DNA of 64,000 nucleotides from the NCBI RefSeq assembly GCF_947539375.1, contig NZ_OX443569.1:868001-932000 (forward strand), written 5' to 3'. Below the pieces are notes generated by a model. It searched no databases and had not been told where the DNA came from. It saw only the letters and a program-made list of their open reading frames with translations. The position numbers were made by a program, and so were the translations under genes. The stretch's first letter is position 1. Each line of letters starts with the position of its first letter. This stretch comes from Lactobacillus isalae. GTDB lineage: Bacteria; Bacillota; Bacilli; Lactobacillales; Lactobacillaceae. Of this stretch, positions 32,891 to 43,251 are shown in pieces.

Positions 32891-34115
32891 AATTAAACTT
32901 TAATGATCTTAGCAACCATCTAAAACGGACTGCTTGGCTACGGCTTGCACTAAAGTGATCTAAACCTTATTGATCTAACAACCATCTAAAACTCACCAGC
33001 TTTGCGTTTACTTTGTGCCAGGGATCTAAACCTTATTGATCTAACAACCATCTAAAACTACCTTCAGCTACGTACATCAACATCTTTCGATCTAAACCTT
33101 ATTGATCCAACAACCATCTAAAACACGTAATCTTAGGTGCTACACCCAAGGAATGATCTAAACCTTATTGATCTAACAACCATCTAAAACTGTTTCTGTG
33201 CCATATTTACAAGGCTACTTGATCTAAACCTTATTGATCTAACAACCATCTAAAACAGACAAAAGTAATAAAAAGAAGTATTATATGATCTAAACCTTAT
33301 TGATCTAACAACCATCTAAAACTGGCGAAACCAATGAACTAGATTCTTTTTGGATCTAAACCTTATTGATCTAACAACCATCTAAAACCGTTTATATCTT
33401 TAACGTTCAACCTGGTTTTGATCTAAACCTTATTGATCTAACAACCATCTAAAACTTATGAAGATACTTATTGTTGATATTATGCGATCTAAACCTTATT
33501 GATCTAACAACCATCTAAAACAGCTTGCTAATTTGTTTTGAGCTTCCTTAAGATCTAAACCTTATTGATCTAACAACCATCTAAAACTTATGAAGATACT
33601 TATTGTTGATATTATGCGATCTAAACCTTATTGATCTAACAACCATCTAAAACTATAATTAGTCATGTAATAAAAATTAAGAAGATCTAAACCTTATTGA
33701 TCTAACAACCATCTAAAACAGCTTGCTAATTTGTTTTGAGCTTCCTTAAGATCTAAACCTTATTGATCTAACAACCATCTAAAACGGATCGTCTGGGTTG
33801 TATCGAGTGATGGATGATCTAAACCTTATTGATCTAACAACCATCTAAAACTAGAATTATACTCGCCATTAGGATAATCATGATCTAAACCTTATTGATC
33901 TAACAACCATCTAAAACTATCAAAAAATACATTTAACGCCTTTACCAGATCTAAACCTTATTGATCTAACAACCATCTAAAACCTCCAACTTCCCCCGTT
34001 AAAACGGTAAGAGGATCTAAACCTTATTGATCTAACAACCATCTAAAACATTCAATCTTGTTTTAGATCTAACATGTGAGATCTAAACCTTATTGATCTA
34101 ACAACCATCTAAAAC
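32891..34115 (-). CRISPR. Type II-A CRISPR array: 19 repeats, 18 spacers (16 different)
   Basis: The 36-nt repeat on the minus strand begins GTTTTAGATGGTTGTTAGAT and ends CAATAAGGTTTAGATC. Full repeats start (plus coordinates) at 32957, 33023, 33089, 33155, 33221, 33287, 33353, 33420, 33486, 33552, 33618, 33684, 33750, 33816, 33882, 33948, 34014 and 34080. A degenerate copy at 32891-32926 marks the trailer end. Spacers are 30 nt except 33389-33419 (31 nt). The repeat at 33089 has one change (33108). Spacer 33456-33485 recurs at 33588-33617, and 33522-33551 recurs at 33720-33749. The leader end is next to csn2, only 32 bases away, so new spacers enter there. Confidence 0.97.
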
Positions 34116-34147: not shown

Positions 34148-34816
34148 TTAGTACCAATCAACAAGGTCTTGATCAATGTAGAAATAATCAACATCTTTTG
34201 GAAAAACCAGAAAATCCGCAGATGTGAATTCTATTAAAATTAATTTCAACTTCATTTCTTTTAATAGATCATTTAACATTCCTAACTGAGCTAAATTTAA
34301 ATAATGAGCTACATTACAAGCAACAGGTATAGAATGCAAATTATAGTTTTGATGTATTTTTAAGATCGATTCAATTATAGCATATGGTTCCTCTAAAAAC
34401 TTAGTATCTAAATGCAGATTTTCTAACTTCAAAAACTTCTTCAAGTCTTCGTTAAATTCAAGTTCTAGAGGTAAATCTTCAAGCAACAATGAATCTTGTA
34501 TTATCCCTTCTAATTCATGATATGTTTTTAATATTTCATTACGATTCGTTTCATTGAGTTCTTCAATATATTCTTTTATAATAACGGGCATATATTTGTC
34601 AAAAACATTTCGATTTAATACTGGATCAGCGATAAAATCAAAATCTTTAATTATATCTAATTGATTATAATCATCATCCGAACTTAGAAGCATATCTTTC
34701 TTACCTTGAAAACTCCGAATTAAATCTTGATAAACTATCGGACTAGAAGTTGCTATTACCTTTATTCCACTACTTTTCATAACCATCTTTTTATGAGATA
34801 AATAAGATAAAATCAT
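34148..34816 (-). CDS. csn2: CRISPR adaptation protein Csn2
   Basis: The 222-aa protein matches the csn2 position at the end of a cas9-cas1-cas2-csn2 set. Csn2 forms a ring around DNA ends and acts with Cas1-Cas2 and Cas9 in spacer acquisition; its presence defines subtype II-A. The sequence has the short-form Csn2 features (ISYL/LSYL start, acidic helical middle, LILIEFTSADFLVFPKDVD near the C-terminus). The start overlaps the cas2 stop (ATGA). The array leader follows its stop codon. Confidence 0.92.
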   Translation of the reverse strand: MILSYLSHKKMVMKSSGIKVIATSSPIVYQDLIRSFQGKKDMLLSSDDDYNQLDIIKDFDFIADPVLNRNVFDKYMPVIIKEYIEELNETNRNEILKTYHELEGIIQDSLLLEDLPLELEFNEDLKKFLKLENLHLDTKFLEEPYAIIESILKIHQNYNLHSIPVACNVAHYLNLAQLGMLNDLLKEMKLKLILIEFTSADFLVFPKDVDYFYIDQDLVDWY

Positions 34817-35121
34817 AAAATCACTGTCCGATCTGAACTATTTCTTACATCATCAACGGGATTTCCAACTAAGAAATGCATATCATTGTATTGTTTCTCA
34901 GTAACCATTAAAGATTGAACGACGCCACTAGTTGGCAAAAAACTTTTAATTCGTTTTTCCAGAAAAATTGCTGTTTTTCTACTTACACATACTCTTTCAT
35001 ATATAGAATATTGAATCATTAAGAATCCTTCGTTAATTAGCCTTTTACGGAACTGACGATACTCTCTTCTTTCACTAGCCGTCTCAACCGGCAAATCAAA
35101 CATTATCATTAATCGCATCAT
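34813..35121 (-). CDS. cas2: CRISPR-associated endonuclease Cas2
   Basis: The ~102-aa ferredoxin-fold protein bridges Cas1 dimers in spacer integration. Visible motifs are MIMFDLPVETASERREYRQF, the strand with the conserved Asp, and FLMIQYSIYERVC. I chose the ATG at 35121 (MMRLM), with GAGG six bases before it; the ATGs at 35118 and 35133 are alternatives. It overlaps cas1 at its start and csn2 at its end, so the three adaptation genes form one translational unit. Confidence 0.95.
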   Translation of the reverse strand: MMRLMIMFDLPVETASERREYRQFRKRLINEGFLMIQYSIYERVCVSRKTAIFLEKRIKSFLPTSGVVQSLMVTEKQYNDMHFLVGNPVDDVRNSSDRTVIL

Positions 35122-36004
35122 TCGGTACCTCATCCGTTAACTCCATTTCTATTTTTATATTATCAATTTCTCCACTTAAAAATCTTAGGCAATCCCTAAC
35201 ATAAACTGTAATTGCATTAGAAAGTAAAGTCTTCCTACCATTGAATTTTATTTCTAAACTAAGCAATTCAACTAATCCAAATTTAATATCAGGCGTAAAT
35301 TCATCAATATTTTCATGCGCTTTAACCCAATAATCTACAAAAGGTCTAAAAGGCTCCATTAAGTCTGACCCCAAATTAAATTGGTTTTCTTGGGAGTGAT
35401 GATGAATACCTAAATAAGATAAATAACCATTTACCGCAATTTCACGATTAAAAGCTGAAAGTAAAATAGCATATCCATAATCTAAGGCAGCATTTATTGC
35501 ACCTGAATTTCTTCTTATAAAATCTTTGCCAAACATACTAATAAAATATTTTCTAGCTGCAGCTGCTTCTCGATTAGTTGAATCATTCAATTCCATTTGA
35601 TCTAATTCATTTTGAACATCATCCCAAATCAAATTATAATTTTGCAATACCTTAATTTGATTTTGAATCTTCCTTGCTACAATTTTCGTCCACAAAAGCT
35701 CTTTTTGCTTTTCATCCCAATTAAACTGATTTTTTAATTTAGCAAGACTTCTACTATTCGGATAATAATCTATTGTTTCACTGACAGGTTGGTATTTATC
35801 ATCAACGAAAATTATTTTAGATTGATTTTCAGCTAGTTTACTAATTAGTGCACTTGTAATTACTGCTTGAGAGGTTGATACCAATAATAAATTGATATCG
35901 CTAATAGGTATCTGATTAATCCCATCTCTTGTTTGCACAATCATCATATTCATTGAATACGTTAATTTAGTATGTTGCGTAATTATTACCGATCGCCATC
36001 CCAT
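35096..36004 (-). CDS. cas1: CRISPR-associated endonuclease Cas1 (type II-A)
   Basis: Integrase for new spacers. The 302-aa protein starts MGWRSVIITQHTKLTYS, the typical type II Cas1 N-terminus. It has NAALDYGYAILLSAFNREIA in the helical domain, the metal-binding His in LGIHHHSQENQFNLGSDLMEPFRPFVD, and a C-terminal helical region. AAGGAGGAAA precedes the ATG. It lies after the tracrRNA region; a terminator separates it from cas9, so it probably has its own promoter or depends on read-through. Confidence 0.97.
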   Translation of the reverse strand: MGWRSVIITQHTKLTYSMNMMIVQTRDGINQIPISDINLLLVSTSQAVITSALISKLAENQSKIIFVDDKYQPVSETIDYYPNSRSLAKLKNQFNWDEKQKELLWTKIVARKIQNQIKVLQNYNLIWDDVQNELDQMELNDSTNREAAAARKYFISMFGKDFIRRNSGAINAALDYGYAILLSAFNREIAVNGYLSYLGIHHHSQENQFNLGSDLMEPFRPFVDYWVKAHENIDEFTPDIKFGLVELLSLEIKFNGRKTLLSNAITVYVRDCLRFLSGEIDNIKIEMELTDEVPNDAINDNV

Positions 36005-36050: not shown

Positions 36051-36167
36051 GTTGGGTAGCTCCCAACTCTAAACTTTATTGATCTAACAACCAGATTTAA
36101 AATCAAGCAATGCATCTTTTGATGCAAAGTTTCAACACTTGTCCCGAGCTATCGAGGGACTTTTTTT
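36051..36167 (+). ncRNA. tracrRNA of the type II-A system
   Basis: The plus strand between cas9 and cas1 contains an anti-repeat (about 36068-36101). It matches the plus-strand repeat over TCTAAAC-TTATTGATCTAAC-AACC, with a two-base bulge, then ATTTAAAAT. Next come a small hairpin TGCATC-TTTT-GATGCA (36111-36126), the tail AAAGTTTCAACACTT, and a terminator GTCCC...GGGAC with seven Ts (36141-36167). A perfect 5' hairpin GTTGGG-TAGCT-CCCAAC (36051-36067) precedes the anti-repeat. It is transcribed opposite to cas9, cas1 and the array. Its role is to pair with crRNA repeats for RNase III processing and Cas9 loading. Confidence 0.88.
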
Positions 36168-36209: not shown

Positions 36210-39200
36210 TTACAAATCTGAAATCTTAACGCGTTTTTCAAATAGACCTGTTGGAGATTGATAAATTAATTTTGCATTTTCAGATAATTTTACACCTGTA
36301 GGAATCTGTAATTTTCCCAATTCCGTAGATAATCCTAAAGACTTAATCTTAGGCATTACAGCATTATCATGTAATCCATTTAATACCTGCAAAATTGTGT
36401 CTTTTTTCTCAGCTAATGATAGATCAACAAATTTTTCTCTCCCAGCATGTAATTTTTCTCTAAATTTATTAATATCAAACAATGGTAGATATTTATCAAT
36501 ATTTGTAAGAATTTCATCATATGCTTCAACCAAAGCTTTCTCCTCTTCAGTATCATTTTCACAATTATCAGTAATTGCTTGCATAGAATATTGAGATAAA
36601 GTTAATTGCTTAGCATTTTGGACATACGTAGAACTTGCAAGCATAAATTTCTTGTCACCATCTAAAATTACTTGCTTATATGGGACTTTTTCTTTAACAA
36701 TCTCAAATGAACTAATTGTTTTATTTTTCTTTCCATTCTTGCTATACATAATTTCAGGTTCAAGTACCTGCTTTAAATAAGCATTATAGTGACCTTTTTT
36801 CTCAGCTTTTCTTAAATTAATCAATTCACGCATTGGTACTCCGAACACGCGATATTCGGTTCCCTTTTTCTTATTAATTCTAACAATAACCATATAGGCA
36901 TCGGAATTATTTGTATATCCGCCATATACTTCAGTAGGCATATCTTTCTTTTTAGGAATCAAATTACGTGATTTCTTTCTATCACGTGATAAACGTGGAT
37001 AGACCGTCATCTTAAACATTTCCTGATCGTGAGTTTCGGTTTCTCGAGAAACAAGCATGTATTTATAATTATATGCATGTTTCAATTTTTCAATTATATC
37101 TTTTTTGTCAAAAACCTTTTTCTTAGTTTCACGACTGATAATATCGTTACCCTTGTTTTCAAAAATTTGCGAAATAAAATTATATCTTCTTGTTTTATCA
37201 TAAATTATCTTTTCTTTTTCAGGTTCGGAACTAAATTTTTTATATTGTCCATATACAAAGAAAGGACGTAAATAAGGATAAACTTGATAAAGAATATTAC
37301 CACAAATAGCTGAAAGATAGGCATCAATTGCATGATGATAATCATTGACTTCTCTACTCTTATATAAGTTTAAATGCTTTCGTAAATAATGATTATATCG
37401 AGCCTTAACAACTATTATTTCAGTATCAGGATACTTAGATTGCAAAATTGTTGAAACCAATTTAATAATTTGACTCGTTTCAACTAATTGTCTATGTATG
37501 AAACCTGAAGATTCATATTTATTAATCTTATCTGGATCAATAATTAAATTATTATACTTAGTCTTTGTAATTAATCCCTGATCTTTCCATTTTTCCCACA
37601 TATGATGAATCGTCATTCCCAAGTCAGTTGCCATATGATTTCCATATAATTTAACTGGTACATTATCCGATTTACCATTATTGACTGCTTTTTTAACTAA
37701 AACTCGGTTTTCCAAGGAATCATCTTTAATAAAGCTTTGTGGAAGAATGTGATCTATATCATATTGTTCTAGATCATCAATATCAATTGGTTCACCCGTA
37801 TAAGCATCTCTACCAAGTTGCATAAAGTATAAATAATATTTATCTTTCAACAATTTTTGATCTTTAGCAACCCTTTCCAGCTCATTTCTAATAGTCTCTG
37901 ATGCTAATTCATTAGATAATTCTTTATAAACTTTGCGTAATTTATTTGCTCGAGTTTGACTTATTTTAGCATTATCGTCTGCATCTCTAGTAAACTCAAT
38001 TGCAATTTGCTTAGGAACCTTTCCTGAGGCTGCTCTAACAATATCATCAACGACTTTAACTACTTGGCGGATTGCTTTCTTATTAGCTGGTGACGTATAA
38101 GCCTCACTTAAAATATCTTCTACACTTGTGTCAACTAGTAAATTTTGGTTAGCAACTGCAATAGCATCTTTAAAATCAGCTTGATTTACAATTTGCATAA
38201 AATTATTTTGACTATCCCAAAGTTGTTCAATAATAGTTTGACCATTATTGTCAGTTAATTGTGATAATAATTTCTTCGATAATTGACCCCAACCTTGCAT
38301 TCTAATCTTGCTTAGTTTGTCAATTTGTCTATCACTGAGCCAGTCTATAGTTTTCAACTTTTCTTTATAAATAGCCTTATCTTCAAAAATAGTTGACCAT
38401 TCGATGATCCGTTCAAAATCTTTATTATAGCTAGGATTATCAATTTGCTGATCAAAAATCTTCAAATTTTTTAATTTATTATAAGTTGTCAATCCAGAGT
38501 TAAATTTCTTTTCATCGGATAAGCCCTTAATCTCAACATTAATAAGTTTATAATTTTCTTTCAAATAGGATTTAAGCTTATTAGTAGTTACAGTTGAATT
38601 CTTCTTAAACAAGTTATTATATAGTTCTTGTTTTAAAGGCACAGATATTCGCTTACCATTAATTTTTATGTTATTAAGTTCATTTAATACTGTAAACTTT
38701 TGATAAAGTAAACTGTTAGCTGGTAAAACATCTTCACCTAATAAGTAAGTATCTTTAGTTGTCATTCTTTTAATGAACTTATTTGCTGATGCCATTCGAT
38801 CTACCTTTTGATCAAAATTCCAAGGAGTAATCTGTCCTTGCCCCTTACGTATCATCCAAGCAAAATTTTGATTTTTCTTTGTTTGGTTATTTTTAGTAGA
38901 TTCGTTTGGTGAAATTAATGGTCCTACATAATAAGGGACTCTAAATCTAATTAGTTCATCAAGCTTATATGGGGCTTGCTTTAAATGTGAAGAAACAGGA
39001 TTTACCTCTTTCAAAAATGGATAATACTTTCCCTGATTTTCAATAATTTTGTCTAATTCAAGCTGATGAAGCTGATATGGAATTACTCCATTTTCATTTG
39101 TTCTCTGTTTTGGCATGAATGAATCTAAGGCAATTGCATCTAAAATTTCTTGAGATTCCTTTGAATCATCTAAATTCTTTTTAACTTCTTTATAAAATTC

Positions 39201-40370
39201 TTCTTTTGATAAAGTTTTCTTCTTTCCTAAAACGTCTTTAGCCTGAAGAATTTTTCCATGTCGATTGTTGACATACAAGTCATAAGCCAGGGCTAATTTC
39301 TTAGCCTTATCTCGATCGGGATGATCAGAAATAACCTGTTTCAATAATTTCAAATCATCTGAATGATTCTCATACTTATCAATCATTGATTCAGATAAAG
39401 TCTTTCCCTCTTCGACAATGTTACTTAAAGTAATTGCATTAGCCAATTCTCTAATTACTGCCAGAATTTCTTGTTCATTTTCATTAAGATCACTAATTAA
39501 ATTTTCGAACTTATTATCGGCATCCACATCAGTAAGCTTAAATTCCCAATCATCTGCTTCATCTTTACTAATGTCTTTTAATAAAATAATTTCAAATTTA
39601 GTTTTATAACCTAAAATAGCATTTACTATTTGCTTAGAAACATCCTTTATTAACTTAGTACGTTCCTTATTATCAGTTTTTAAAGAAAGTAATTGGTTAA
39701 TTTCCTTAACTTTATTTATCTTGAAGACTTTTTTATCTCGAATAATATTTTCAATTTCTAATGCATTATTACTATCAAGCTTTACATTAAATTCTGAGTC
39801 TAATCCTTCATATAACTCATTTAATTTCTTTAAACTACCTTTTACATCTATTTTTGAAGCTTCAAAGTCTTTTACAGGTGTATTATATAAAAAATTACCG
39901 CGGTATTTCACAATATGGTGAATTGCAAGATAAACTTCTCTTAAATCAAATTTTCGATCTTCAGTCATCAACTTGTAACGAAGATGATAAATAGTAGGAT
40001 TATCAACATAAAACTTCTTATCTTCAAGAGATGTTGGATAAATTATTGAAGATACATTTTTTCTTGTATCTAAAGGTGAGAGACCAGATTCTTTTAAACG
40101 AGCAAAAAAGTATGGATCAACTTTTGCCATATGAGAATCAAATATCTCTTCTAATAACTTTAATCGCCACTTTCTTCTTTTAATTCTTCTTCGTGTTGTT
40201 CGAAAAGCCCGACGATCAGCTGCCGAATTTTCTGCATCAAATAAGTGAGAACCAATAGCAGTTTTTCCATGCATTCGCAGAATAGTATTTTTAGAGTCCA
40301 TTGCTACCCAGCCACAAGAATTAGTCCCGATATCCAAGCCCACAATATAATCTTTGGTTATTTTTGTCAT
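36210..40370 (-). CDS. cas9: CRISPR-associated endonuclease Cas9 (type II-A)
   Basis: RNA-guided nuclease that cuts both DNA strands. The 1386-aa protein has RuvC-I with Asp13 (IVGLDIGTNSCGWVAMD), the Arg-rich bridge helix (RRIKRRKWRLKLLEE, about 62-76), a long helical recognition lobe, RuvC-II (KQIAIEFTRDAD), the HNH motif (YDIDHILPQSF), RuvC-III (HHAIDAYLSAICG) and a C-terminal PAM-interacting domain. Catalytic residues look intact and the length is usual for lactobacillus II-A Cas9. AGAAAGGAAAATAT precedes the ATG. Its leader carries a CRISPR repeat-like element. In L. gasseri the reported PAM for this family is NTAAC (recalled, not checked). Confidence 0.98.
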   Translation of the reverse strand: MTKITKDYIVGLDIGTNSCGWVAMDSKNTILRMHGKTAIGSHLFDAENSAADRRAFRTTRRRIKRRKWRLKLLEEIFDSHMAKVDPYFFARLKESGLSPLDTRKNVSSIIYPTSLEDKKFYVDNPTIYHLRYKLMTEDRKFDLREVYLAIHHIVKYRGNFLYNTPVKDFEASKIDVKGSLKKLNELYEGLDSEFNVKLDSNNALEIENIIRDKKVFKINKVKEINQLLSLKTDNKERTKLIKDVSKQIVNAILGYKTKFEIILLKDISKDEADDWEFKLTDVDADNKFENLISDLNENEQEILAVIRELANAITLSNIVEEGKTLSESMIDKYENHSDDLKLLKQVISDHPDRDKAKKLALAYDLYVNNRHGKILQAKDVLGKKKTLSKEEFYKEVKKNLDDSKESQEILDAIALDSFMPKQRTNENGVIPYQLHQLELDKIIENQGKYYPFLKEVNPVSSHLKQAPYKLDELIRFRVPYYVGPLISPNESTKNNQTKKNQNFAWMIRKGQGQITPWNFDQKVDRMASANKFIKRMTTKDTYLLGEDVLPANSLLYQKFTVLNELNNIKINGKRISVPLKQELYNNLFKKNSTVTTNKLKSYLKENYKLINVEIKGLSDEKKFNSGLTTYNKLKNLKIFDQQIDNPSYNKDFERIIEWSTIFEDKAIYKEKLKTIDWLSDRQIDKLSKIRMQGWGQLSKKLLSQLTDNNGQTIIEQLWDSQNNFMQIVNQADFKDAIAVANQNLLVDTSVEDILSEAYTSPANKKAIRQVVKVVDDIVRAASGKVPKQIAIEFTRDADDNAKISQTRANKLRKVYKELSNELASETIRNELERVAKDQKLLKDKYYLYFMQLGRDAYTGEPIDIDDLEQYDIDHILPQSFIKDDSLENRVLVKKAVNNGKSDNVPVKLYGNHMATDLGMTIHHMWEKWKDQGLITKTKYNNLIIDPDKINKYESSGFIHRQLVETSQIIKLVSTILQSKYPDTEIIVVKARYNHYLRKHLNLYKSREVNDYHHAIDAYLSAICGNILYQVYPYLRPFFVYGQYKKFSSEPEKEKIIYDKTRRYNFISQIFENKGNDIISRETKKKVFDKKDIIEKLKHAYNYKYMLVSRETETHDQEMFKMTVYPRLSRDRKKSRNLIPKKKDMPTEVYGGYTNNSDAYMVIVRINKKKGTEYRVFGVPMRELINLRKAEKKGHYNAYLKQVLEPEIMYSKNGKKNKTISSFEIVKEKVPYKQVILDGDKKFMLASSTYVQNAKQLTLSQYSMQAITDNCENDTEEEKALVEAYDEILTNIDKYLPLFDINKFREKLHAGREKFVDLSLAEKKDTILQVLNGLHDNAVMPKIKSLGLSTELGKLQIPTGVKLSENAKLIYQSPTGLFEKRVKISDL

Positions 40371-40449
40371 ATATTTTCCTTTCTAGTATTTAATCAGCTT
40401 AGCATTTAAGCGCTTTCTTACATTGTAAAAATAATATGAGCAACTCCTT

Positions 40450-40513
40450 GATTAAATTTCATTGATCTAACACCCATCTAAAACTACTAACTAAATCAAA
40501 AAGATTTGCTCAC
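40450..40513 (-). ncRNA. crRNA-like element in the cas9 leader (degenerate repeat plus spacer)
   Basis: On the minus strand, 40484-40450 is a 35-nt degenerate copy of the array repeat: GTTTTAGATGGGTGTTAGAT then CAATGAAATTTAATC. It keeps the first nine bases and the GTTAGATCAAT core that pair with the tracrRNA anti-repeat; the distal end has decayed. The bases just 5' of it (40513-40485, about 29 nt) sit where a crRNA spacer would be, and they begin at the predicted transcription start. A TGAGCAA / TTGCTCA inverted repeat (40512-40506 with 40443-40437) brackets the unit. The spacer's last 12 nt, ATTTAGTTAGTA, recur in the promoter. Confidence 0.55.
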
Positions 40514-40519
40514 GTTTAT

Positions 40520-40548
40520 ATTTTACTACTAACTAAATGTTTTCTAAA
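40520..40548 (-). promoter_or_regulatory. cas9 promoter with embedded guide target
   Basis: Minus strand TTTAGA (40548-40543), 17-base spacer, TAAAAT (40525-40520), predicting a start near 40513. The spacer contains ATTTAGTTAGTA (40538-40527), identical to the 3' end of the leader 'spacer'. It is followed by GTAAA (40526-40522), an NTAA-type PAM overlapping the -10 box. Cas9 bound here would block RNA polymerase. Confidence 0.5.
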
Positions 40549-40571
40549 CAAAAATTTATTAAAAACTTCTT

Positions 40572-41438
40572 TTACTCCCCTCGATACTTCTTCAAAATAG
40601 CTAATTTTTGCTTGGCGTCTCGGGACTTCAAATAGTCATCGTCAAATTGCAAGAGAGCTAAACGTTTTTTGTAGGCTTTTTCTTCTTCAGTTGTATCAAA
40701 ACCAATTAACTTCAACAAACTGATTCGCTGCTCAACTGCTTCTGCTGGAAAGACTGATAATTTATCAACTTGTGCTGTAACACTGGCGTTTAAAATACGA
40801 TGCGTATAAATACTTTTATTCATGTACGCAATTTTGTCAGCAAGTAAATAAATTTTCCAGGTGGTTAAATCATCTTCAACTTTTGCATTAATTAGATAAA
40901 CAATATTTTTAAAAAGTTCTCGCTTATACAACTTTCCCCATGGAACTACGAAAACCATTGACATGTTATAGTAGACGGTTCTATATTCCAACTTAAACCA
41001 GTCTTTTGGCGAATAGCACTTTTCAAAATAATCATCCTCGTTCATCCAGTATAAAAATGCGGATTTCTCTTCGTCGAATTCGTTAAAATTGCCAACTGCA
41101 ATATCTGCATCGCCTTTTTTCAAAAGATTATACAAATCTTCAATATGAGTTTCCGGTAACCAATCATCATTATCGACAAATGAGACATAATCACCACTTG
41201 CCATAGCTAATCCAGCATTTCTGCTAGACCCAACGCCACCATTTTTCTTATGAAGAACCCTAACCTGACCATATTTTTGTCTATACTCTTCACAAATTTT
41301 AGGTGAATTATCGGTTGAGCCATCATCTATCAAAATCAATTCAATGTTTGAATAAGTTTACTTCAAAATGCTATCAACACACTGATTTAAGTACTTTTCA
41401 TCATTATAAACTGGAATTATTACTGATACTTTTTTCAT
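40572..41438 (-). pseudogene. Family 2 glycosyltransferase broken by a nonsense codon
   Basis: The gene starts at the ATG at 41438 (MKKVSVIIPVYNDEKYL) and runs in one frame to 40572, 288 codons, except for TAA at codon 27: SILK-stop-TYSNIELILIDDGS. The normal residue is almost certainly Gln (CAA). The GT2 features are otherwise intact (DDGSTDNS, DNDD, later KVEDDLTTW). It would add a sugar to a surface polysaccharide. Either the stop is a recent inactivation, or a shorter product starts at the Met of MILIDDGSTD, which would lack the first strand of the nucleotide fold. It lies after the rml cluster terminator. Confidence 0.8.
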
Positions 41439-41505
41439 GTTTTTCCCTAGAGCTTTCTAATATAAGAATAAGTATTAAAAGCTCATTATACACTACCCCA
41501 ACACG

Positions 41506-41537
41506 AAAAAGGACCAAGCCTGCGCTTGATCCTTTTT
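41506..41537 (-). terminator. Ancestral terminator of the rml operon
   Basis: Stem AAAAAGGATCAAGC / GCTTGGTCCTTTTT (G-U pairs) on the minus strand, 24 bases after the duplicated rmlD end. The intact rmlD copy at 45225 has no such hairpin. Confidence 0.75.
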
Positions 41538-42014
41538 ATTCGGTATTATTTAATTCAAAGTTTACTTCCCCAACTCATCAAAGAAGCCGTCGGCCTTTAA
41601 AATATCTAAGTAACGACTAATAGCATCAGTCCAAGTTGGAAGTGGCTTAAAGCCATTTTCTTCTAACTTGCTCTTATCTAGGCGAGAGTTAAACGGACGA
41701 ACTGCCTTTGATAAGCCGTATTCTTCAGTAGTTACAGGAGTTACCTTAGTCTTATAGCCAGCCTGCCGATAAATTTCTTTAGTGAAATCGTACCAAGAAA
41801 TGTAACCAGTCTTAGTACCATTTTCATCATAGTCGCCTTCATTTGCTGGTAATTCTGCATTAGTTGCATGGTAGTAGCCGTACTTATCAGTTTCAATCAT
41901 GTCTACCAATAAACGAGCTAAATCAAAAGTGTAAGTTGGTGTACCTACTTGATCACTAACAACCTTAACTTCATCATGGTTTGAACCAACTTTAAGCATT
42001 GTCTTAATAAAGTA
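41536..42014 (-). repeat. Direct repeat, copy 1 (3' end of rmlD)
   Basis: About 480 bases nearly identical to 45200-45678, starting at CGGTATTAT just after the stop codon of rmlD and ending within GTCTTAATAAAGT. The copies differ at scattered third positions. Together they bracket the 3.2-kb island. Confidence 0.9.
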
Positions 42015-42047
42015 CGTAAAAATAGATAATGCTAAAAATTTACTCAT
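41562..42047 (-). pseudogene. Truncated duplicate of rmlD (C-terminal half)
   Basis: The last ~150 residues match the C-terminal part of the intact RmlD (from FIKTMLKVGSNHDEVKVVSD to the end), while the first 13 codons (MSKFLALSIFTY) are unrelated. The NAD-binding N-terminal half is missing, so the fragment cannot be a working dTDP-4-dehydrorhamnose reductase. It marks one edge of an inserted or rearranged segment. The reading frame is still open, so the event may be recent. Confidence 0.85.
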
Positions 42048-42129
42048 ATATTCAACTCACTTAGCTATGCTATCTAAAACTACACTTACCACAACTGGCT
42101 GGATGTTCAAATTAGACAGTTAAATTCAA

Positions 42130-43251
42130 TTAATTATCAGTTTTATCTTTTGGTTTCTTCATATCTAGACTAATTATTTTATCTTTATTCTTTTCTATTG
42201 GTTTTCCTTCTTTTCTTATGCTTAACCCTAATTCTTTTCCTCTTATATCTTTTGCTTTTAATTCTCTGTATTCTATATCAGCTTTTAAATTTTTGACTTT
42301 ATTTTGTTTATGCTTACTCCAAATATCTTGACATGTTTCTATTAATCCTTTCTTTTTCAAATTTTCTTTTCCTAATAACAATTTTAGAGATTTATTTAGT
42401 ATAAATACAAAGGATCCAAAAACGCCCGATCCAAATACAACTTCTATAAAAAAATGTATATCATTAATCGAATGTGTTACTAAAGTAAAAAAGCCAGGAG
42501 AATTTATATTTGCTTTCATGTCAATGTTATTACTTTTTTCTTTTGGAAAAACGGAAACTAACTTTGACCAATCAGAAATAGAAAACTCTGAGCCCTTTGA
42601 AGTATGAACACGAAGATAGAATTTACCTTCATATTTGTATACAGGAGAAACTAAATTAAACAGCTTTGTTTTATTATCTATGTCAAGAGATGCCACTGCT
42701 TGGTGAGCATTCATTATCCACGCTAATTCCTTTGGGAGATCATTTCTATTGATTATAGAAATCCATTGAACAGACCTTCTTTTTAGATAACCAGAAGGTT
42801 TATAGGAGATATCTTGATTTTCATAATCTTTTTTCAATTTTTCAATATTCGTAATACTCTCATCATATGGATCACCAATAACAATTCCTAAAGCAAATTC
42901 ATATGAATGTTTAGCAGGAACTAAAATAAAATCGCCAATCTTAATCTCATAGACAAATAGATAGGTTTGTTTTGCATGAATCGTTAATTGTGCCTTTGCA
43001 GTAGTAGATAAATTATTTATTGTTGTTCTGTTATCTTTAATGTACTGTTTGAACATCAATTGCTTAATATCTTCAAGCGTTACGAATTCTTGTTTCTGCA
43101 GTTTTTTAATATTATCAATCGTCAGCTTATTGTATTTAATACCGATATAATCATTATTTAAAAAATCAGAAAAATATTTACCTCCTTCAGCACGTAACAA
43201 CCAAAAATTGGTCTTACGATTAAACTTAAGAATTGAAATTTCAGAATTCAT
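42130..43251 (-). CDS. EVE/Mrr-N-like sensor protein with a membrane segment
   Basis: The 373-aa N-terminal part (1-190) resembles the PUA/EVE-like domain at the front of McrB- and Mrr-type restriction proteins: FWLLRAEGGKYFSDFLNNDY, then FVYEIKIGDFILVPAK, ALGIVIGDPY and KRRSVQWI. Such domains read modified bases or other nucleic-acid marks. A hydrophobic stretch (about 263-290, IHFFIEVVFGSGVFGSFVFIL) could be a membrane helix, and the tail is very basic. I see no nuclease motif. A sensor tied to a membrane effector would suit a defence protein, but this is inference. It sits in the rmlD-flanked island. Confidence 0.55.
   Translation of the reverse strand: MNSEISILKFNRKTNFWLLRAEGGKYFSDFLNNDYIGIKYNKLTIDNIKKLQKQEFVTLEDIKQLMFKQYIKDNRTTINNLSTTAKAQLTIHAKQTYLFVYEIKIGDFILVPAKHSYEFALGIVIGDPYDESITNIEKLKKDYENQDISYKPSGYLKRRSVQWISIINRNDLPKELAWIMNAHQAVASLDIDNKTKLFNLVSPVYKYEGKFYLRVHTSKGSEFSISDWSKLVSVFPKEKSNNIDMKANINSPGFFTLVTHSINDIHFFIEVVFGSGVFGSFVFILNKSLKLLLGKENLKKKGLIETCQDIWSKHKQNKVKNLKADIEYRELKAKDIRGKELGLSIRKEGKPIEKNKDKIISLDMKKPKDKTDN

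Follow-up and report, generated by a model that had tools for sequence, protein, structure and literature searches.

A candidate self-repressing guide RNA in the cas9 leader of a Lactobacillus type II-A CRISPR-Cas locus

In the window (the whole 64,000-nt stretch of DNA analysed), the 5′ leader of cas9 contains a degenerate CRISPR repeat, and the bases preceding this repeat end in a 12-mer that recurs in the putative cas9 promoter. Judged from the sequence, this arrangement is best explained by a scaRNA-like guide, encoded in the leader, that would repress cas9 itself, a reading to which we give a probability of roughly 0.6; cas9 would probably turn down its own expression by way of its mRNA. 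The layout of the leader, the identity of seed and promoter copies, the potential to pair with the tracrRNA, a paired change in a second species and the lack of a tracr-L alternative all bear on this reading.

The leader repeat, its seed and the putative cas9 promoter

The window carries a type II-A CRISPR-Cas locus on the minus strand in which cas9, cas1, cas2, csn2, tracrRNA and array are all present (Table 1). The tracrRNA, with boundaries read from the sequence, reaches past the anti-repeat as far as a hairpin and run of T near 36167. Between 33000 and 43000, members of the repeat family other than those of the array are limited to two: the tracrRNA anti-repeat (near 36070-36111) and the cas9 leader copy. 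In the array itself (around 33450-33755) two spacers each occur twice, in the order A B C A C. Upstream of cas9, a short ORF at 41562-42047 matches the C-terminal part of RmlD only (profile positions 159-283 of 285), and is apparently a truncated RmlD copy beside the CRISPR-Cas locus.

Table 1. Features of the CRISPR-Cas locus and of the cas9 leader in the window
Feature	Coordinates	Strand	Remarks
csn2 (type II-A)	34148..34816	-	TIGR01866
cas2	34813..35133	-	TIGR01573
cas1	35096..36004	-	TIGR03639
cas9	36210..40370	-	1386 aa; TIGR01865
CRISPR array	32957..34115	-	18 repeats, consensus GTTTTAGATGGTTGTTAGATCAATAAGGTTTAGATC, 17 spacers; then one extra spacer and a degenerate terminal repeat
tracrRNA anti-repeat	36067..36104	+	tracrRNA antisense to cas9, downstream of cas9
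3′ arm of leader hairpin (AATCAAGGAG TTGCTCAT)	40436..40453	-	predicted pairing with 5′ end and PAM-distal guide half
Degenerate CRISPR repeat	40450..40484	-	array orientation; repeat positions 1-32 align
20-nt guide (spacer position)	40485..40504	-	candidate; seed = 40485-40496
5′ arm GTGAGCAA of leader hairpin	40506..40513	-	predicted fold
cas9 mRNA 5′ end	about 40513	-	putative, from position of -10 box
Putative -10 box TAAAAT	40520..40525	-	L. hominis has an identical -10 box and spacing (17 nt)
PAM-position bases GTAAAA	40521..40526	-	adjoin target site, overlap -10 box; TTAAAA in L. hominis
Promoter target site ATTTAGTTAGTA	40527..40538	-	identical to guide seed
Putative -35 box TTTAGA of cas9 promoter	40543..40548	-	pattern match only

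A degenerate repeat in array orientation had been proposed for the cas9 leader in the initial annotation, and was confirmed at 40484-40450. It matches the array repeat at 23 of the first 24 bases, and none of 200 shuffles equalled its local alignment score of 24. Sequence comparison showed that the element resembles the repeat and not the anti-repeat, and it was therefore rejected as a second tracrRNA; no tracrRNA-like stretch was seen by eye on the opposite strand. Further along the leader, at 40418-40423, lies a start-stop pair, ATGTAA, which is common to L. hominis and has AAGGAG about 20 bases upstream.

The predicted duplex between tracrRNA and leader repeat has an energy of -27.2 kcal/mol in the window and -26.7 in L. 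hominis; the corresponding values for the array repeat are -41.1 and -34.6 kcal/mol. Over its first 110 nt the tracrRNA region shows no difference between the window and L. hominis. No shuffle of the window leader repeat reached -27.2 in 1000 trials (mean -9.0, best -18.9 kcal/mol), and when 36-mers on the minus strand of 39000-43000 were sampled every 3 bases, those predicted to pair most strongly with the tracrRNA were those of the leader element. The repeat had been said to keep its tracrRNA-pairing blocks and to have lost the rest. The predicted pairing holds, but the 3′ part has not simply been lost: the predicted duplex has 30 pairs, as against 34 for the array repeat, and includes a distal 4-bp block.

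The 20 bases preceding the leader repeat (40504-40485) end in ATTTAGTTAGTA. This seed 12-mer, at 40496-40485, recurs exactly at 40538-40527, 42 bases upstream, where it sits between TTTAGA and TAAAAT (17-nt spacing) and is followed by GTAAAA. The recurrence between -35- and -10-like boxes, followed by GTAAA, was thus found where the initial annotation had placed it, and the same is true of the 5′ half of the guide, described there as having no match: beyond the 12 matching nucleotides, 7 of the 8 PAM-distal positions are mismatched to the promoter site. Seed matches of at least 12 were obtained in 5 of 5000 shuffled window leaders, and matches of at least 11 in 6 of 5000 shuffled L. hominis leaders. 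The promoter pattern itself is no better than chance, with one found against a shuffle mean of 1.3 in the window and one against 1.6 in L. hominis. The call of a putative promoter gains some weight because the -10 box and the 17-nt spacing are the same in both species.

Three copies of the 12-mer are present in the 2.12-Mb genome, two being the seed and the promoter site; on a rough estimate one or two would be expected by chance. The third copy (G000:C1:1355293-1355304; L165 1501-1512) lies just upstream of a gene start and is followed by ATGAG, which fits the NNGA motif considered below. We take the product of the downstream gene, from its appearance, to be a nicotinate phosphoribosyltransferase. 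This copy is a possible second target of the leader guide. Elsewhere in the genome the window 11-mer is followed by NNRA twice more, each time as NNGA, so the promoter need not be the guide's only site. The L. hominis 11-mer has one further occurrence in the L. hominis genome.

In both species GTGAGCAA and the PAM-distal half of the guide are predicted to pair with 40453-40436, forming a hairpin. When pieces of 84-87 nt were folded, 2 of 200 shuffles (window) and 6 of 200 (L. hominis) folded as well as the natural sequence; at full leader length 50 and 47 of 200 shuffles were as good, and the fold stands out locally only. The lowest-energy fold hides the PAM-distal guide half in the hairpin, and could compete with processing.

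Comparison with L. hominis and other loci

L. hominis DSM 23910 (G018 = L031 = L083) was the only close relative that we found to have the start of cas9 intact. Its Cas9 is 95% identical to that of the window (63 of 1386 residues differ), and 125 of 1387 third positions of cas9 (9%) differ. L. hominis keeps the leader repeat, the 42-nt spacing, the -10 box and the TAAAA behind the promoter site; the sequence surrounding the promoter copy has otherwise diverged. The L. hominis guide ends in GACTTAATTAGTA, followed by GTTTTAGATGG, and the promoter copy reads ATCTTAATTAGTA, followed by TTAAAA. Counted from the PAM, position 7 of the guide has changed from G to A and position 11 from T to C, in the seed and in the promoter copy alike. 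The promoter copy differs at positions 12 and beyond and at the first PAM base, leaving a seed match of 11 bases with TAAAA still one base beyond the site. As to whether seed and site diverge independently, a question raised in the initial annotation, both have changed together in this one relative. The chance of exactly these paired changes if the promoter copy were free to vary is roughly 4e-4 (2e-4 to 6e-4), by a simple equal-rates, post hoc estimate with a per-site divergence of 0.05-0.35. The covariation comes from one species pair and two substitutions, and so leaves room for conversion between the copies or for co-evolution with a protein. The hairpin could explain the unchanged PAM-distal half of the guide. 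It does not explain the seed change, since T to C leaves a hairpin base unpaired.

The array repeat of L. hominis (L083 6632-7261) has GTTAG in place of GATGG, the first repeat having GTTGG. GATGG is kept in the L. hominis cas9 leader copy, and the tracrRNA is unchanged.

Cas9 matches were obtained in 29 of 75 genomes of the genus. Among 27 records with a placeable cas9 start, the window and L. hominis alone had a leader repeat; where a record had no array, the repeat of another species served for the comparison, which makes the test weaker. A wider survey covered 83 of 110 locus records, those with a usable array repeat and cas9 start, corresponding to 74 distinct loci from many genera, and among the best 40 of the 83 records no further leader element was seen beyond those of the window and L. 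hominis. In L059 a true array, and not a leader element, stands upstream of cas9. The eleven elements ranking next (in L144, L130, L142, L155, L147, L148, L152, L146, L150, L160 and L153) were judged to be tracrRNA anti-repeats: the strand opposite the crRNA-like reading runs into tracrRNA-like sequence with a later run of at least 5 T, and the ten of these elements on the plus strand give seed matches of at most 5 nt if read as crRNA-like. Records with a 50-62% identical Cas9 had no leader element, which indicates that related systems do without it. In one genome (G067) the contig coding for a 74% identical Cas9 begins near Cas9 residue 205, and a search of that genome for the N-terminal part yielded nothing; another (G019) has cas9 remnants only, with an upstream region that resembles other Lactobacillus loci and, by eye, contains no leader repeat. 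The leader DNA had no match in plasmids and phages, and neither the leader repeat pattern nor Cas9 was found in viral contigs. Cas9 was present in nine plasmid records, all with less than 60% identity.

A lone CRISPR repeat was observed in a genome without a Cas9 match (G014; L064, about 1501-1534). The sequence after it resembles that after the terminal repeat of the window array, and the lone copy seems to be the final repeat left from an array that has disappeared. It lies near a gene that we take to be rmlD-like.

Bases adjoining the promoter site

The initial annotation had supported Cas9 binding at the promoter with an NTAAC PAM for L. gasseri Cas9. The native PAM reported for that protein, which may not be the window's Cas9, is cTAAC, with cTAAAC partly functional (PMC6070500). 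An in vitro study of L. gasseri Cas9, again possibly not the window's Cas9, gives NNGA/NDRA, NDRA being present at 29 of the 41 targets that were cut and at 14 of the 405 that were not (PMC5796720). An L. johnsonii plasmid (L169) contains a target of one window spacer with 0 mismatches and TAGAA directly behind it. For a second spacer, targets with 1-2 mismatches occur in two L. gasseri phages, an L. johnsonii prophage and an L. gasseri plasmid (L166-L168, L170), and these have TCGAA or TTGAA behind them. The targets of the two spacers point to an NNGAA PAM. A weak phage match with 6 mismatches (L171) was dropped from this reading, and L172 was rejected as a spacer target, as it matches the leader end of the array and not a spacer. 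Three further searches with window spacers returned nothing or the array only. A search for spacer targets of the L. hominis array found none, and one L. hominis spacer searched singly had no match beyond the array itself.

The bases at the promoter sites, GTAAAA in the window and TTAAAA in L. hominis, fit NDRA and NTAA, but not NNGA. Since the targets of its own spacers show NNGAA, NTAAA may be a poor PAM for the window's Cas9, and the PAM argument is weaker than had been claimed. The promoter sites may be second-rate for Cas9, which lowers confidence in the reading but would also suit binding without cutting.

Proposed regulation and relation to known systems

We propose that the 5′ untranslated leader of the cas9 mRNA would itself be a crRNA-like guide. 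The tracrRNA would pair with its degenerate repeat, after which cutting by RNase III and trimming would free a crRNA-like RNA whose guide part measures 20 nt, the length of the spacer part in lactobacillus type II-A crRNAs (PMC6070500). Cas9 loaded with this RNA would bind the cas9 promoter between -35 and -10 through the 11-12-nt seed; the PAM-distal mismatches would block cutting, and transcription would be repressed. There is a published precedent in S. pyogenes, where a crRNA with 11 nt matching Pcas, together with tracr-S, represses Pcas in a reporter much as tracr-L does (Kim and Marraffini, PMC11417352). The leader element has the parts for crRNA-like repression and the tracrRNA has no tracr-L match, which together favour self-repression. 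The reading put forward in the initial annotation accordingly fares well on the joint change of seed and site, the pairing with the tracrRNA, the want of a tracr-L alternative and the S. pyogenes precedent, and less well on the PAM. More tentatively, the feedback may act at two levels: a single cut by tracrRNA and RNase III would both destroy the message and, from its leader, make the guide that silences its own promoter, so that transcripts are counted, with relief when array crRNAs compete for tracrRNA and Cas9.

The leader could also act after transcription only, if tracrRNA pairing with the repeat led RNase III to cut the cas9 mRNA, or altered the 5′ hairpin, and so lowered Cas9, the seed match being irrelevant. 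The strong predicted pairing and the hairpin predicted in both species would suffice for this, but the 12-nt and 11-nt identities to the promoter, their register with the repeat, the TAAAA behind the site and the paired substitutions would all be left unexplained, and we regard such an account as unlikely. The paired substitutions would also be predicted if the two copies were direct-repeat operators of a DNA-binding regulator and had changed with it, and the spacing of 42 bp, about four helical turns, is equal in both species. Operators would not, however, account for one copy ending exactly where the CRISPR repeat starts, nor for a match that stops at the length typical of repressive Cas9 seed matches, and no palindrome common to the sites of both species was seen by eye; we consider this, if anything, slightly the less probable of the two.

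As improbable as a purely post-transcriptional effect is that the element is a relic, that is, a stray repeat from an old array or a mis-insertion beside a short duplication made by chance or slippage, the copies being kept alike by conversion. Solo relic repeats do exist, as in G014, and AT-rich 12-mers, with three copies of this one in the genome, are not very rare. A relic should nevertheless decay, yet with 9% of the third positions of cas9 diverged, the first 24 bases of the repeat (1 difference) have survived, as has the seed match, and GATGG has stayed in the leader of L. hominis where its array changed to GTTAG.

Among known systems, autorepression in type II-A is documented for tracr-L. 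Like the window candidate, tracr-L of S. pyogenes belongs to a type II-A system in which Cas9 represses its own cas promoter without cutting, through about 11 matching bases (PMC11417352), a match length given as 9 in section 7 of PMC8730458. Its guide lies within the tracrRNA, forming a natural single guide, whereas the window candidate is a separate crRNA-like unit in the cas9 leader. No long-form tracrRNA matching the cas promoter over 11 nt was seen in the window: the longest exact match between the 5′ extension of the tracrRNA (220 nt) and Pcas is 9 nt (shuffle mean 9.0, maximum 11). In 16 records searched for matches of the tracr-L type, the longest was 10 nt and none exceeded its own shuffle maximum (the anti-repeat of L032 is probably mis-located).

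The scaRNA of Francisella novicida (type II-B) also has a diverged repeat that pairs with tracrRNA, and 11 bp followed by mismatches lead to repression (PMC12231574; PMC8730458 section 7); FnCas9 with the scaRNA spacer is described as forming a short R-loop and repressing without cleavage (PMC12231574). It differs in that it is a small RNA in its own right, with a lipoprotein gene as the target of repression, whereas the window candidate would be the 5′ end of the mRNA to be repressed. A scaRNA-type guide would be expected to form a transcription unit by itself, with a start site and a terminator (PMC6199352); the window element lies in the cas9 leader, and no terminator-like site was found in 40371-40600. 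What the window shares with scaRNA-type systems is a diverged repeat outside the array, predicted to pair with the tracrRNA. A scaRNA-type guide would also be expected to have a seed match of about 11-15 nt next to a PAM; the match here is 12 nt in the window and 11 nt in L. hominis, with PAM-distal mismatches, and the adjoining bases fit NDRA and NTAA but not the NNGAA at targets of the window's own spacers.

CreR of type V systems is a crRNA-resembling RNA whose partial match to a nearby promoter lets a Cas12 effector repress it. CreA, of type I, is likewise a repeat-like RNA with a partial match to a nearby promoter, which is repressed by the CRISPR effector (PMC8730458 section 7). Both differ from the window candidate in their effectors (Cascade for CreA), in having a separate RNA gene and in involving no tracrRNA processing of an mRNA leader. 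Closer to hand is the ldrRNA of lactobacillus arrays, in which a 20-nt leader stretch and the first repeat are processed like a crRNA, which indicates that RNAs of this leader-repeat kind do undergo processing in these systems, that of L. gasseri among them; it derives from the array leader, and its function is called unknown in the same source (PMC6070500).

No guide inside a cas9 mRNA leader is described among the matches listed in our literature search (titles and abstract openings), though Shmakov 2023, on regulatory RNAs derived from CRISPR and apparently the survey closest to the subject, may list this element, and the main text of Guzina 2018, on scaRNAs in type II systems, makes no mention of L. 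gasseri. If the proposal is true, placing the guide inside the very mRNA to be repressed would wire RNA-guided feedback in a new way, and would tie the control of cas9 to tracrRNA supply and array size. The idea is directly testable in non-pathogenic lactobacilli, where type II-A systems have already been handled (PMC6070500). By analogy, the leader element would work like a scaRNA in the anatomy of its guide and like tracr-L in purpose, and we do not file it as a scaRNA. It would be a variant of known RNA-guided cas autorepression in which the source of the guide is new.
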